In this document: one piece after another, positions 22,986 through 61,653 of the stretch
Layout: each line of letters starts with the position of its first letter
Numbering within the stretch: the first letter of the stretch is position 1
Position numbers and translations under genes: made by a program
Notes under the pieces: model-generated
What the model was told of the DNA's origin: nothing
Seen by the model: the letters and a program-made list of their open reading frames with translations, nothing else
Databases searched by the model: none
DNA from: Halobacterium noricense
Lineage (GTDB): Archaea > Halobacteriota > Halobacteria > Halobacteriales > Halobacteriaceae
Direction: 5' to 3'
DNA: 64,000 nt
NCBI RefSeq assembly: GCF_021233435.1
Contig: NZ_CP089468.1
Location: forward strand, 1,488,001 to 1,552,000

Positions 22986-23093
22986 CAACGGAATCGTCGC
23001 AATCCCCGATATTAATAATTCGGATATGGGAACGTCTGACTCATCGTGAGGACCGTCCCGACCCCGAACGGTATTTTCTCGAATAGAGAACAC

Positions 23094-23450
23094 CCTATCT
23101 AGTAGAGGGAACAGGAACCATCTCGAAGAAAATGATTCCAGAGGCCTGCTGGGCGGTAATATCGTTTATTGCTGGTCACCACCTCGGCAATCTAAAATAT
23201 TGGTTGATTCTACTATAGAGAACGCTGTTTGAGGGTTGTGGCCACTATCACCGACACACCGGAACGGGGCTGCAATCGGTGGCAAACTACCACCGGCAAA
23301 AATCGGCGAGTACGGACGGTAACGCACGGAATCGTCCGACGCCGAGCGTCACTTCGCTTCTGTTCAGTTAGCACGGCCGGAGCTGAATCGGTTTCTCGGG
23401 AGTGCTTGGTCCGACGGCCACCGGAACGGACACGCATAATGGTTCGCTAT
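23094..23450. other. Gene-free stretch upstream of the first hairpin element
   Basis: No supported coding region. Short frames on either strand lack homology-like features. The left end contains two similar short pieces, ATAGAGAACACC (23084-23095) and ATAGAGAACGCT (23215-23226), of unknown meaning. Confidence 0.5.
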
Positions 23451-23458
23451 CATAGAAC

Positions 23459-24003
23459 GGTGGTGTTCAGATAGGGACTCGTCTGAACACAGCTTCAGCC
23501 GGCGGACCAGCCGGTAATCCTGGCGGTCGCCGGGAGAGCAACGCGCTCCCGAGGCCTCGGAAATCGGAGATTTCCGGCGGATTGAAAGCGCGAGGCGCAC
23601 GTGGCGGCGAAGCCGCCACGTTTTGCAGCGGTCGGTGCAGCCGACCGCCCACTCGACGAACCCCAGCGAAGTAAGCACGTGAGCGACCACCGGGAGCGAA
23701 CGCGCGTGGTCCGAGAGACGCGGAGCGTCTCTCGTCGCAATTCGTGAGGGCGGCGAACGCTTCGCGTTCGCCTGCTCTCGAAAGAGCGCTGTGCGCTCTT
23801 TCGGCGACAGAGAGGGAGCAAGCTCCCTCAGGCAGCCGGCGGGCTATGCCCGCCGGCGACAGCGAGCCACGGGAGTCTCGTGAGTGCAACGAACGAGACC
23901 ACGGGAGACGAGCACTGCGAGTCTCCCGACGGTCGAGACTGCCGAGGGCTTTCAAAACGCAACATCGTCTCCGCTACTTTCGTCTGCTTATCTGAACACT
24001 GCC
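23459..24003 (+). mobile_element. Non-coding hairpin-array element, copy A (545 bp), with 8-bp target duplication
   Basis: The element starts GGTGGTGTTCAGATA and ends (read inwards from the other side) GGCAGTGTTCAGATA; it is flanked by the direct repeat CATAGAAC at 23451-23458 and 24004-24011, an 8-bp duplication as made by IS6-family transposases. Inside is a string of hairpins, most with 3-base loops. Arms: GTGTTCAGA (23463/23482), GGAAATC (23559/23569), CGTGGCGGC (23600/23612), GCGGTCGG (23628/23641), CGAGAGACGC (23712/23725), GGCGAACGC (23752/23764), CGAAAGAGCGC (23779/23793), GAGGGAGC (23812/23822), GCCGGCGGGC (23835/23848), GGGAGAC (23903/23921). All these are perfect. Open frames inside are by-products of the palindromes. 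The element has no transposase and was probably moved by an IS6-type enzyme. Confidence 0.8.
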
Positions 24004-24406
24004 CATAGAACGAAACTAATGCGAAAATGACGTCATCTGCCGGTAATCCCATGTGTAAAATTATTATTGATTGGAGTTAGTGGACGACCACAGACGACGA
24101 GATGGGGTCCCAATTTCGCAGTCGGGATTACACCAATACCTTTGTAATTCTTTGGTGAGTGGCTCGTCGCATGCATGACTCACCGTCGCGGCCCAACAGC
24201 AAGTCGCACCACTCAGGCCGGTAACGACATCAGCGACGACACCAGAGCGTAGAACGACGGGTGACTCCGTGGCCATGGATACGTTGCGATTGTTGGATTA
24301 CCCTAATGATTCTGAGTTAGCCTTGCATCAGTACGAGGGGTTTTCATTACTTTAGGATACTATCGGGTACACCCGTACGAGGATTTCTAGACCGCGATTA
24401 TTCGCT
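24004..24406. other. Gene-free stretch between hairpin element A and the broken IS630 gene
   Basis: The first eight bases are the right target duplication of element A. The rest has no supported gene; its 3' part may contain the left end of the IS630-type element, but I could not find a clear terminal repeat. Confidence 0.45.
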
Positions 24407-25133
24407 GTGAAACAAGTCTATACGGGCTACGACCTGTCGCTTCTCATTCAGGGACTGTTGCAGAGGGTAGTGAATCATCTCGACGAAATTTCCGCCGAGG
24501 AATTACAAAATGCCTCAGACAACGTGGACGGAAAGAAGCCGACATAACGGCTCTTAGCGACAATTGCGTACAAGAACGGTGTGACGCAGATCGAGTTAGC
24601 CGAGTGGTACGATGTTCAGCAGCGGACGGTCTACAGCTGGCTCGAGCGACTCGACACCGACGAGTCGCTTGAGCAGGCTGCATCTAATAATAAACGAGCT
24701 GAGAGGAAGCGAAAACTCTCAGAAACACAGCAAGAAGAATCTGAACAACCAATTCACGAACCACCTGAAAAGGCAGGAATCGACGCGCCGGCATGGGCGC
24801 CGGCGCTCGCCCAGCAATTCCTCGAAGAAACGTACGACGTGGAGTACTCAATCCCGAGTTGCCGGCTGCTGTTGAAAGAGGCGGGATTGAGCTATCAGAA
24901 ACTACGCCGTTCAGCCGCCGAATCTGACGAAAGCGAGCAAGAGGGGGCTCTATGACGAACTCAAAAAGCGGCGGGAGATGAACGCCACCGTAGTCTGTAT
25001 CGACCAAACGAAGCAATCCGTGCAAGTCGAGCCGCGGGCCGCGTGGTTTCCGCGCGCACCGAGAACGGTGCTCGCTTCTTCTCTCGATTCACCGAGTACG
25101 TCACGGCCGAACACGCGAAACATTTCATTTTCG
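24407..25133 (+). pseudogene. IS630-family transposase, broken and truncated
   Basis: The reading starts at GTG 24407 (VKQVYTGYDLSLLI). An in-frame TAA at 24546 interrupts it; the same frame continues with RLLATIAYKNGVTQIELAEWY and an HTH segment QQRTVYSWLERL typical of haloarchaeal IS630 transposases, then VEYSIPSCRLLLKEAGLSYQ. Near 24940 an extra G shifts the frame; the next frame reads LYDELKKRREMNATVVCIDQ, which contains the first catalytic Asp of the DDE domain (VCIDQT). A further disturbed part ends with FTEYVTAEHAKHF at about 25129, where the IS6 element begins. The last third, with the other catalytic acids, is missing. So it carries one nonsense mutation, at least one frameshift and a truncation by insertion. 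Confidence 0.8.
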
Positions 25134-25252
25134 GGCACTGTCTAGTTGAGTCAGTTTGAGAAGTGAGCAGGTCGTTGAGTAAGTTGGTCAAGATGCTCGC
25201 AGACCTGCTCAACGAGAGATGAACCGGATTTAGAAGAAACTTGGGAGAATGA

Positions 25253-25345
25253 GCGGACGGCGACGTGACGAGACGCTCTGCGTCTCGTTCGCACATCAGA
25301 ACCCGTTGGGTTCTGAGGACGCCCGTTAGGGCGTTCGCCGTCCGC
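25253..25345. repeat. Three tandem hairpins inside an 11-bp outer stem, within the IS6 transposase region
   Basis: GCGGACGGCGA (25253-25263) pairs perfectly with 25335-25345. Enclosed are three hairpins: arm ACGAGACGC with loop TCT (25268-25288), arm TCAGAACCC with loop GTT (25296-25316), and arm ACGCCC with a 4-base loop (25319-25334). This is a four-way, cloverleaf-like layout. It falls between the N-terminal codons of the transposase (frame reading NERTAT) and FAVRLHQTG, and breaks that frame, so it looks like an insertion of hairpin units of the same kind as those in elements A and B. Confidence 0.65.
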
Positions 25346-25924
25346 CTCCATCAGACCGGTTGTTTTCTTCGAGAAACAACAACAATTTTAGCTGAATTAG
25401 GCATGCAACGCTCTCATGGTGCGGTTTGGAACTGGGTGCATCGGCTATCTGACAGCGGACGCGACCCGCCTGAGGCCCAGCCGTCAAGGGTCGCCGTCGA
25501 CGAGACCGCTGTCAAAATTAACGGTGAGTGGTCTTGGCTGTATGCTGCAATAGACATCGACACAAAGTTGATTCTCGATGTCGCGTTGTTTGGTCGGCAT
25601 GGCACTGATCCGGCCGCTGCGTTTCTGCAGAAACTCCAGGAGAAACATGATCTCTCGGAGGCTGAGTTTCTCGTCGATCAGTTCGGCTACCGGACTGCCC
25701 TTGCTCGAGTAGGATTGAGCGGCCGGGTCAACTATACCGAGCGAAACCTCATCGAAAAGTGGTTTCACACGCTCAAAATGCGGGTCGGCCGCTTCCATAA
25801 CTCGTGGGTGGGCAGTCGATCGAGCGTTCGAGAGTGGCTTGAACAATTTATGCATTACTACAACCGCCACAGACCGCATCAAGCTCTCGATGGAAAAACG
25901 CCGATCGAGGAGGTCCAGAACTAG
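25265..25924 (+). pseudogene. IS6-family transposase, 5' end disrupted
   Basis: The frame from GTG 25265 gives 219 residues, of which those from FAVRLHQTG onward match the haloarchaeal IS6 type: HTH with RSHGAVWNWVHRL, DDE catalytic domain with VAVDETAVKINGEWSWLYAAID, FLVDQFGYRTAL (second Asp) and RNLIEKWFHTLKMR (Glu), ending RPHQALDGKTPIEEV. The N-terminal part normally encoded upstream is visible in other frames (KMLADLLNER, then DEPDLEETWENERTAT) and is separated by frameshifts and the hairpin nest. The DDE domain itself is intact, so a shorter protein started at the GTG might still act, but loss of function is more likely. Confidence 0.75.
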
Positions 25925-26064
25925 ACAGTGCCGCGTCACAAAATTGAAGATTGAGCGTCATTAGCGGCTTCATAGACCTCATCTGAACAGTACTTGATAT
26001 TCGACATGCTAATGCTAATCAGTACTTCGGCGCGCGATCTATTGGTATAAGTATCCCCCTCACC

Positions 26065-27210
26065 TTAGAAATTCTGATAGATGATATCTCGATGGATGGC
26101 GCTCACGCCCTCGTAGATTACCGGGTTCCGGGCGTCCCTATAGACTCGCGAAATCCGACTGTCGTCGATAATCCCACGTCCGCCGTGCAGTTGAATCGCA
26201 GTTTCCGCACAATCGGTGGCGGTTTCCGTCGCTTTCAGCTTCGCCATCGATGCCCATCGTTCAGAACTGTCGCCGCTCTCTACCCGATCGATAGCCTGCC
26301 AGAGGAGTGCTCGTGCGCTTTCAAACTCCGTGCGCATTTCAGCGAGATCGTGTTGTACCGACTGGAAGTCCGCCACGCTCTGGCCGAACTCTTCTCGGTC
26401 GTGGACGAACTCCCAAGCCTCCTCGATGGCCGCAGCAGCAAGTCCAATACCTTGCCCCGCAACACGCGTCCGGCCGTGGTTGAAAAACTTCGCAAGCATC
26501 CGAAAGCCGTCTCCTCGATTCCCGACGAGATATTCGGCGGGAATTCGGCAGCCGTCGAACGTGATATGGGCCTGTTCAGACGCTCGCATTCCCATCTTCT
26601 CGGGGATGTGTTCTGCCTCGTAGCCCGCAATATCTGTCGGGACGATGAACAGTGAATGGTTGCTGTGACGGTCATCCGTATCTTCGGTTCTAGCATATAC
26701 AGTGATCCAGTCAGCCGACACACCGTGACCGATCCAATACTTCTCGCCGTTGATGACCCACCCATCACCGTCTTTCCGAGCGCGTGTGGCGACGCCAGCT
26801 AGGTCGCTTCCTGTCTCTGGTTCGGAAATCGCCATCCCTGTCGTCGCGTCACCAGTTGCAACAGACCTGAGGAATTCTTCTTTTTGCGAGTGGGTGCCGA
26901 ATTCCTCAAGAATTCCGGTACCGAAGCTCTGGCCGAGGATAGCAAGTCCAATTCCAGCATCGGCCCGGAAGAACTCTTCGATCGTCCCGACTACCTGTGC
27001 AAGAGACCGGCCTTGACCGCCGTACTCCTGACTGATTTCTTGGCCAACAAAGCCAGCGTTTTGCGCTGCCTCGACGACGGCAGCGGGATATTCGCCTGAC
27101 TTGAAATGTTCTGGGGCGGCGGGCTTGATTTCTTTGCTGGCGAATTCTCGGGCCTGTTGTTTGATAGCTCTAGCTTCTGCTGGTACCGAATTTTCGGAAA
27201 GTAGCTCCAT
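26065..27210 (-). CDS. Acyl-CoA dehydrogenase
   Basis: A 381-residue FAD-dependent dehydrogenase starting MELLSENSVPAEARA at 27210 (an upstream frame to 27303 lacks homology). FAD/substrate motifs: GMAISEPETGSDL, YWIGHGVSADW, RVAGQGIGLA, QLHGGRGI. The catalytic base is the Glu in VIYEGVSAIHR near the C-terminus, as in medium-chain type enzymes. It oxidises an acyl-CoA to the enoyl-CoA in the cytoplasm and passes electrons to ETF. It stands alone on the minus strand next to the IS6 element and divergent from the extradiol-dioxygenase-like gene, at the left edge of the catabolic island. Confidence 0.9.
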   Translation of the reverse strand: MELLSENSVPAEARAIKQQAREFASKEIKPAAPEHFKSGEYPAAVVEAAQNAGFVGQEISQEYGGQGRSLAQVVGTIEEFFRADAGIGLAILGQSFGTGILEEFGTHSQKEEFLRSVATGDATTGMAISEPETGSDLAGVATRARKDGDGWVINGEKYWIGHGVSADWITVYARTEDTDDRHSNHSLFIVPTDIAGYEAEHIPEKMGMRASEQAHITFDGCRIPAEYLVGNRGDGFRMLAKFFNHGRTRVAGQGIGLAAAAIEEAWEFVHDREEFGQSVADFQSVQHDLAEMRTEFESARALLWQAIDRVESGDSSERWASMAKLKATETATDCAETAIQLHGGRGIIDDSRISRVYRDARNPVIYEGVSAIHRDIIYQNF

Positions 27211-39173: not shown

Positions 39174-39709
39174 GTAGTGTTCAGATAAGCAGTTTCCAGC
39201 AGCAGAGTTGTGGGGAACAGCTGAAAGCCCTCGGCAGTCTCGACCGTCGGGAGACTCGCAGTGCTCGTCTCCCGTGGTCTCGTTCGTTGCACTCACGACA
39301 CTCCCGCGGCTCGCTGTCGCCGACGGGCATAGCCCGCCGGCTGCCTGAGAGAGCTTGCTCCCTCTCTGTCGCCGAAAGAGCGCACAGCGCTCTTTCGAGA
39401 GCAGGCGAACGCAAAGCGTTCGCCGCCCTCGCAAATTGCGACGAGAGACGCCGTCGGCGTCTCTCGGTCGACTGCGGAAGACGCGTCGCGTCTTCCGAAC
39501 GCCGGGGTTCGTTGAGTGGGCGGTCGGCTACGCCGACCGGCGCAAAACGTGGCGGCGAAGCCGCCACGCGCGCCTCGCCCCTTCAATCCGCCGGAAATCT
39601 CCGATTTCCGAGGCCTCGGGAGAGCGTTGCTCTCCCGGCGACCGCCAGGATTACCGGCTGATTCGCCGGCTGAAGCTGTGTTCAGACGTATCCTTATCTG
39701 AACACCACC
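39174..39709 (-). mobile_element. Non-coding hairpin-array element, copy B (536 bp), inverted relative to copy A
   Basis: The ends read GGTAGTGTTCAGATAAG and, from the right, GGTGGTGTTCAGATAAG. Read on the minus strand it follows copy A over most of its length, with the same hairpins: arms GGGAGAGC (loop GTT), GGAAATC (TCC), CGTGGCGGC (GAA), CGGTCGGC (TAC), CGAGAGACGCC (GTC), GGCGAACGC (AAA), CGAAAGAGCGC (ACA), plus one not in A, CGGAAGACGC (GTC, 39476-39498). Two stems carry single mismatches (GCCGACGGGC and GAGAGAGC arms). The flanking octamers (GCCAACCA and TCTCGGCC) differ, so no target duplication is left. The 50 bases at its left end differ from A but match element C. Confidence 0.78.
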
Positions 39710-61444: not shown

Positions 61445-61572
61445 GTCGCTTCGGGTCAAGCCCGGGGCCATTCGCCTTCACCGACTGCAAAAGTCCAAAT
61501 AGGGGAGTGGAATATCCGGGCCTGCTGTCGGCGGTGGGGCGTGTCGGAATTGTCGGATTTATCCTACCGTAA

Positions 61573-61591
61573 CGAGACGCGACGCGTCTCG
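61573..61591. repeat. Perfect hairpin between convergent genes, same stem type as the hairpin arrays
   Basis: Arm CGAGACGC (61573-61580), loop GAC, arm GCGTCTCG (61584-61591). The stem core GAGACGC/GCGTCTC is the same as in hairpins at 23712 (element A), 39442 (element B) and 25268 (IS6 region), each with another 3-base loop. It lies between the convergent paa operon and acyl-CoA dehydrogenase gene, so a bidirectional terminator role is possible. A following piece GCGAACGCTTCACGC resembles a decayed GGCGAACGC hairpin of element A. Confidence 0.6.
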
Positions 61592-61653
61592 CTCGTACAC
61601 GCGAACGCTTCACGCTCCGGGGATGCCGAGAAACGGGGTATCCTTCTGGTTCC

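Follow-up and report, generated by a model that had tools for sequence, protein, structure and literature searches.

A probable two-hairpin mobile unit inserted in an IS6 transposase-gene palindrome points to a family of gene-entering elements in haloarchaea

The hairpin nest that interrupts an IS6-family transposase gene of Halobacterium noricense appears to be a composite of a natural palindrome of that gene and an inserted, non-autonomous two-hairpin mobile unit of 56 nt. We propose, with a probability of about 85%, that this unit represents a family whose members insert 3′ of RRCG, end in GACG and leave no target duplication, have entered the same IS6 site repeatedly, and also lie in frame within host genes. 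The window analysed here is a stretch of 64,000 nt from the 3.3-Mb genome, and the features that concern the unit are collected in Table 1.

Table 1. Positions of the unit, the surrounding nest, the host IS6 element and relatives of the unit within the window (R1, model of the unit).
Feature	Position	Strand	Basis or score
IS6-family element carrying the nest, 799 bp, with 14-bp terminal repeats (25134–25147 and 25919–25932)	25134–25932	+	
Remaining open frame, 219 aa, GTG start; DDE domain kept, N-terminal part missing	25265–25924	+	
Left arm of native IS6 palindrome (outer stem of nest), coding	25253–25263	+	Found in uninterrupted copies
GACG, insertion-site tetranucleotide (consensus RRCG), kept 5′ of unit	25262–25265	+	Uninterrupted IS6 copies of the same genome; RRCG in 83/109 flanks
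Two-hairpin mobile unit (putative), 56 nt, 1 nt below the common 57-nt form	25266–25321	+	Interrupted/uninterrupted comparison; R1 78.0 bits
Hairpin 1 of unit, 9+3+9, variable stem	25268–25288	+	Fold, covariation
Hairpin 2 of unit, 9+3+9, YCAGAA..TTCTGR	25296–25316	+	Fold, pattern scan, covariation
GACG, 3′ end of unit, itself a possible new target	25318–25321	+	Flank set, tandem copies
Third hairpin; native IS6 from 25322 on, first three bases from the unit end	25319–25334	+	
Right arm of native IS6 palindrome (outer stem of nest), coding	25335–25345	+	Found in uninterrupted copies
Weak relative of unit inside hairpin-array element A	23710–23752	+	R1 24.6 bits
Partial relative of unit inside hairpin-array element	39439–39499	-	R1 37.9 bits
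Degenerate copy of unit (element B)	61569–61625	+	R1 31.9 bits, E 2.7e-8

The nest spans 93 nt (25253–25345), and its DNA fold reaches −42.2 kcal/mol, compared with −19.6 ± 2.6 for shuffled sequences (z −8.7; 0/200 shuffles equal). The original prediction described an 11-bp outer stem (25253–25263 pairing with 25335–25345) around three hairpins, two of them perfect 9+3+9 structures, and all of these were located. It also treated the nest as a single inserted unit, a view that the other IS6 copies of the genome contradict. At the uninterrupted site these read GCGGACGGCGACG followed directly by CCCGTCAGGGCGTTCGCCGTCCGC, and variants thereof, forming an imperfect native palindrome in which the outer arms and the third hairpin nearly adjoin; therefore, the insert comprises only 25266–25321, directly after GACG. 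With its outer stem native to uninterrupted copies, the whole nest is ruled out as one element. We give virtually no credence to the idea that the hairpins arose by chance or are an ordinary component of IS6. Although the native site already forms a strong palindrome, the fold score, the 17 genomic matches to CAGAAN9TTCTGRGGACG (none in the reversed control) and the uninterrupted copies, which refute it, all stand against this idea. A tRNA or known RNA family was likewise ruled out for unit and nest: ARAGORN called no tRNA at 24800–25800, and Rfam gave no match above the gathering score at 23000–27000, where the sole sub-threshold match (sR2) falls elsewhere.

The interrupted gene encodes an IS6-family transposase (Pfam match PF13610, DDE_Tnp_IS240) whose frame is cut between the codons ERTAT and PVRAFAVRLHQTG. 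A break between the N-terminal codons and the FAVRLHQTG part had been predicted and lies there, but it holds only 25266–25321 and not the nest. This copy is also 2 nt shorter upstream than another interrupted copy (L002), and the 56-nt length of the unit together with this 2-nt loss disrupts the gene. No 8-bp target duplication surrounds this copy of the element (25134–25932). Directly 5′ of it lies an IS630-like transposase remnant (HTH_33; 24581–25130), which the IS6 copy seemingly entered or adjoins.

A BLAST search of the region against its own genome returned four interrupted IS6 copies (L001–L004), all at one site, and seven uninterrupted copies (L005, L007, L010, L011, L012, L014 and L015); L006 ends before the site and is uninformative. 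IS6 relatives with and without the insert therefore both exist, and the nest is not a constant part of intact copies: L007 is uninterrupted, its frame runs for 236 residues without a stop, and its 8-bp target-site duplication is perfect. Interrupted L002 has a near-perfect 8-bp duplication (AAGCGGAC/AAGCGGAG), and interrupted copies may therefore have been moved in trans by intact IS6.

In a tree of the IS6 backbone, with the unit left out, the interrupted state changes three times, each change being forced by well supported branches. Units of different sequence occupy the same IS6 site in another genus (genome G017), where they measure 57 nt (L344) and 54 nt (L352) and keep the frame locally, with an in-frame reading from MLADLL in L352. 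The site is again occupied by units of other sequence in Halovenus rubra and Haladaptatus litoreus (L233 and L230). These units in other genera, the three changes in the tree and the many unrelated sites that carry units argue against a single old IS6 insertion that spread with the IS and is immobile now. We regard such an origin as improbable, even though close copies occur in pairs (L001/L002 and L003/L004) and L002 has a near-perfect duplication. Gene conversion could mimic repeated insertion, because two IS6 groups share ∼95% identity in the insert but 81% in the backbone. A second hot spot was seen in IS6-type transposase genes of several genera, between ..DPP and AQPSRVAVDE (flanks of L179, L209, L241 and L156).

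Judged from its sequence, the two-hairpin unit belongs to a family that is widespread in haloarchaea. A model (R1) built from eight copies showed covariation in both helices (98.6% paired; 27 double-change cells versus 9.9 in shuffled data). YCAGAA..TTCTGR and the terminal GGACG are conserved, and hairpin 1 varies with compensatory changes. Units are mostly 54–60 nt long, and 80/84 right-half matches sit within a full two-hairpin unit. R1, whose E-values are rough, matched 76 places in its own genome at E 0.01, some of them reverse-strand echoes of palindromes. Matches were found in 37 of 40 related haloarchaeal genomes (own included), with genomes sampled at one per species. Across the phylum, 29 of 196 genomes matched, all within the same order; among the phylum genomes listed, which cover all but 147 of the non-matching ones, four of the order had no match and none outside the order had one. 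When a named species collection was scanned with the pattern, 79 of 80 loci among the matches listed were haloarchaeal, and the single exception, in a Paceibacterota MAG, contains no full unit. Genome G017 also holds a related 54-nt subfamily (GTGGCGAGAAC..GTTCTCGC..CCGGAACGC..GCGTTCCGGTGACG) in GAGCG/GAACG contexts (L338–L347, L353 and L357); this genome has no Y1_Tnp gene match.

Target and ends were read from 128 R1 matches of at least 45 bits, reduced to 109 by removing 3 identical copies and 16 with equal flanks; the copies examined are mostly the best-scoring ones, from the top of the score list. RRCG lies directly 5′ of the unit in 83 of the 109 distinct flanks, and the unit starts with TT in most. 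A second flank set had RRCG before 61 of 82 units, against a background of 3.5%. The right end is GACG, which the pattern behind this second set itself demands. Three further comparisons resemble that at IS6, none with a duplication. In a tnpB gene, TTCGGCG and TCGAAAT enclose 60 nt in L289 and L293, compared with uninterrupted TTCGGCGTCGAAAT in L283, L288 and L297. An IS605 left end carries a 57-nt unit in L283 and L288 that is absent from L284, L289, L293 and L297, and another tnpB has a unit in its 3′ part in L287, compared with L021 and L285 without one. The IS6 site, IS605 ends and tnpB are recurrent hot spots. At the level of sequence comparison, these pairs demonstrate precise insertion 3′ of RRCG without target-site duplication, the uninterrupted sites keeping the 5′ tetranucleotide once. 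The last 4 nt of the flank equal the last 4 nt of the unit in 24/109 cases. GACG at both ends of the IS6 insert had hinted at a 4-bp target duplication, which was ruled out by GGCG..GACG cases with known uninterrupted sites.

Since the right end is itself a target, units occur head to tail in tandem (G034:C49 7615–7784; 2331883–2331996 of the own genome). Target sites have a modest hairpin propensity (mean MFE −9.7 versus −8.1; p 1e-4), part of which comes from tandem units, and a base pair enclosing the junction was no commoner than in controls (103/124 versus 559/620). In L287 (G016, ∼1240–1390, + strand), the palindrome of an IS605 left end contains two different units in tandem, together ∼109 nt long. 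Another type of two-hairpin insert, with spacer CGTCATCA and end GGACG, lies within a palindrome at a tnpB 3′ end (L025:430–500).

The first hairpin had been predicted to share a GAGACGC stem core with two other elements of the window, A and B. For B a relationship holds in that it is a degenerate relative of the unit; for A the match is weak, and the core is not a signature of the family because hairpin 1 varies with compensatory changes. Element A itself reads AACCCCAGCG, uninterrupted, near 23661, and elements of its type elsewhere in the genome have a full unit after AACCCCGGCG. As other elements of this type in the genome contain complete units, nested insertion seems to have built part of the hairpin arrays. 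The window has two related elements of this array kind, at 23465–24010 and 39200–39703, each with about ten hairpins and with ends that read GTTCAGA..GTCTGAACAC.

Hairpin units had also been predicted to enter genes, and they do so beyond the IS6 transposase gene that holds the nest unit. An earlier GC3–GC2 coding test was too crude (99/125 unclear) and was replaced by a test of codon usage in the 150-nt flanks only, blind to the unit, on 107 distinct copies (the 109 minus two near contig ends). Twenty copies lie between coding flanks of one strand, all 20 in sense orientation and in the same codon phase, and by this test none of the 107 copies is antisense within a gene; for 85 copies the two flanks are not both coding, and for two they lie on different strands. 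Nineteen of the 20 are in frame (16 of 60 nt and three of 57 nt) and the remaining one, with 58 nt, shifts the frame. Some inserts are common to species, such as those in a DUF2797 protein (L087 and L133) and a DUF7561 protein (L060 and L134), which limits the independence of the 20.

Hosts include MinD, MenD, NAD(P)H-hydrate dehydratase, lipoate ligase and fibrillarin. A unit adds 18–20 mostly polar residues, typically a peptide like VRKTTKSSSAAHQNASRSED; VRKTTESSSAAHQNASRSED is an example for MinD, NAD kinase or NNR, and tandem copies in frame occur in L062/L073. Alignment of the MinD-like L090 with PDB 1g3q covers both sides and leaves out exactly the insert, that of L092 (NNR) with 2ax3 has a 19-residue gap, and the fibrillarin insert is located before the part alignable to a PDB sequence. 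Pfam domains span the insert in L087, L088, L090, L092, L062 and L135, among others; L054, L055 and L139 had no Pfam match. The inserts that the own genome has in fibrillarin (20 aa) and MenD (19 aa) are each missing in 11/11 other Halobacterium rows shown, these being 11 of 12 rows each after L324 (MenD) and L310 (fibrillarin) were filtered out, with L313 as part of a split fibrillarin match. The phase used in genes gives a polar, Ser/Asp/Glu-containing peptide, and another open frame is arginine-rich. Therefore, we infer that the single orientation and phase reflect selection; surviving in-gene insertions would be limited to one orientation, one phase and lengths that are multiples of three. 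Histidine-kinase-like genes in the flanks of L030 and L198 contain repeated NAVEH/DAVEHGST stretches, as if hairpins had inserted in frame one after another at a single site.

Mitochondrial byp elements are hairpins skipped by the ribosome, and in-gene units could in principle be skipped in the same way instead of being translated. A few gene copies do have frame-breaking units (L130, and L052/L121 in two species), but skipping would not need 19/20 units to be in frame and multiples of three, and in the own genome the thioesterase copy has its frame broken at a second point, which leaves this explanation with very long odds. In L052 and L121, from two species, a gene that we take from its motif to be thioesterase-like is split by a unit of 58 nt that breaks the frame; nearly all differences in the 40 codons upstream are synonymous, and the additional break in the own copy lies downstream. 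For this gene ribosome skipping was rejected as unsupported, the own copy being in decay.

How could such units move? Our best guess is that the mobilising route of the proposed family would be single-strand, HUH-type transposition in trans. Units would move as folded single strands, cut by a trans-acting enzyme after RRCG on the left and after GACG on the right, possibly in the manner of IS200/IS605 TnpA or REP/RAYT systems, and the right end would recreate the target, so that units stack head to tail. A narrower form names a Y1 TnpA of the IS200/IS605 type as the enzyme and the unit as a minimal relative of haloarchaeal PATEs, consisting of left-end and right-end hairpins only; its chances are slightly short of even. 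The two near-terminal hairpins, the short 5′ target kept once and the lack of duplication fit this form, as do Y1_Tnp genes, of which the own genome has six and which are present in five of six genomes searched. Terminal-only PATEs of 52 bp have also been described (PMC3119063, in the part available). Against it, G017 (99% completeness) has no Y1_Tnp match, yet 37 unit copies at E 1e-4; this genome could possibly have lost the enzyme after the unit spread. The one IS605 group that was delimited, from several copies, has ends that differ from those of the unit, with TTAGCTGAA at its start and ..TTCAC at its end, and a motif search of the six own-genome Y1 loci found no resident TnpA ends matching the unit. 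The ∼2 nt before hairpin 1 would barely accommodate a TnpA guide sequence. Another hairpin-nicking replication or recombination enzyme, such as a viral or plasmid rolling-circle Rep, would suit G017, and the available part of PMC13107129 describes the hairpin-nicking Rep-Arvir family as common in haloarchaeal viruses and plasmids; on balance we think such an enzyme unlikely.

The clean interrupted/uninterrupted pairs define target and ends, and culturable haloarchaea offer a way to test how palindromes lacking a transposase move and are tolerated by proteins. Part of the hairpin arrays of haloarchaea would be accounted for by insertions that stacked or nested, and loops annotated as insertions in haloarchaeal proteins call for caution, since they may be recent mobile DNA. 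Tentatively, with the odds somewhat against us, we suggest that the family comprises order-wide, minimal (54–60 nt), gene-invading archaeal elements with two hairpins, no terminal inverted repeats and no duplication, whose mover would not be a resident Y1 transposase. A 60-nt subtype would be shaped for translation by its fixed phase and length, and so would go on supplying MinD and other core proteins with linkers of 20 residues.

Among known systems, classical MITEs differ from the unit, which has no target-site duplication. Haloquadratum SMR-A elements, as far as the available text of PMC3119063 describes them, are ∼110 bp, have inverted terminal repeats and insert into IS605 palindromes without duplication, with no known mobiliser. 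The unit shares with them the lack of duplication, the near-terminal IS605 palindromes as targets and the lack of a known mobiliser, but compared by description it is half their size and has no such inverted repeats, its ends reading TTGACGAG.. and ..GGACG. The L287 tandem comes close to the 110-bp SMR-A in size and place, and SMR-A elements may each consist of two such units. Haloquadratum PATEs, whose ends are related to IS605 ends in the same partial source, resemble the unit in their near-terminal hairpins, short target, lack of duplication and, for the short forms, length; by description they may differ from it in their ends, those of the unit being unlike the ends of the sole IS605 group delimited. 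In bacteria, CGTC REPs occur in five phyla as single hairpins of 20–40 bp or dimers, have CGTC at one end and include the Rickettsia palindromic elements (RPEs) (PMC3733652, available part). Their 8–9-bp stems and lack of a known dedicated transposase recall the unit, the reverse strand of which starts with CGTC followed by hairpin 2. They differ in being single hairpins or symmetric dimers, whereas the unit is a fixed pair of different hairpins with a defined RRCG target and frequent in-gene sites. RPEs are in-frame palindromic elements of about 150 bp in Rickettsia protein genes (PMC10969869, available part). Like RPEs, the unit is a short palindromic repeat in frame inside unrelated genes (19/20 in frame) with CGTC at one end; compared by description, RPEs are bacterial and ∼150 bp long, whereas the unit has 54–60 nt and two hairpins, occurs in Halobacteria, and also lies in IS/MITE targets. 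Intergenic REPs in archaea have been analysed (PMC12306157, the available portion of which has no mention of 'halo'), and the literature searched, which included few subscription papers and no supplements, holds no report of an in-frame palindromic element in Archaea. By this comparison, the unit behaves as RPEs do and has features in common with CGTC REPs, while its length or architecture sets it apart from each. In Archaea it seems to be the equivalent of the Rickettsia palindromic elements, distributed across an order and not a genus.
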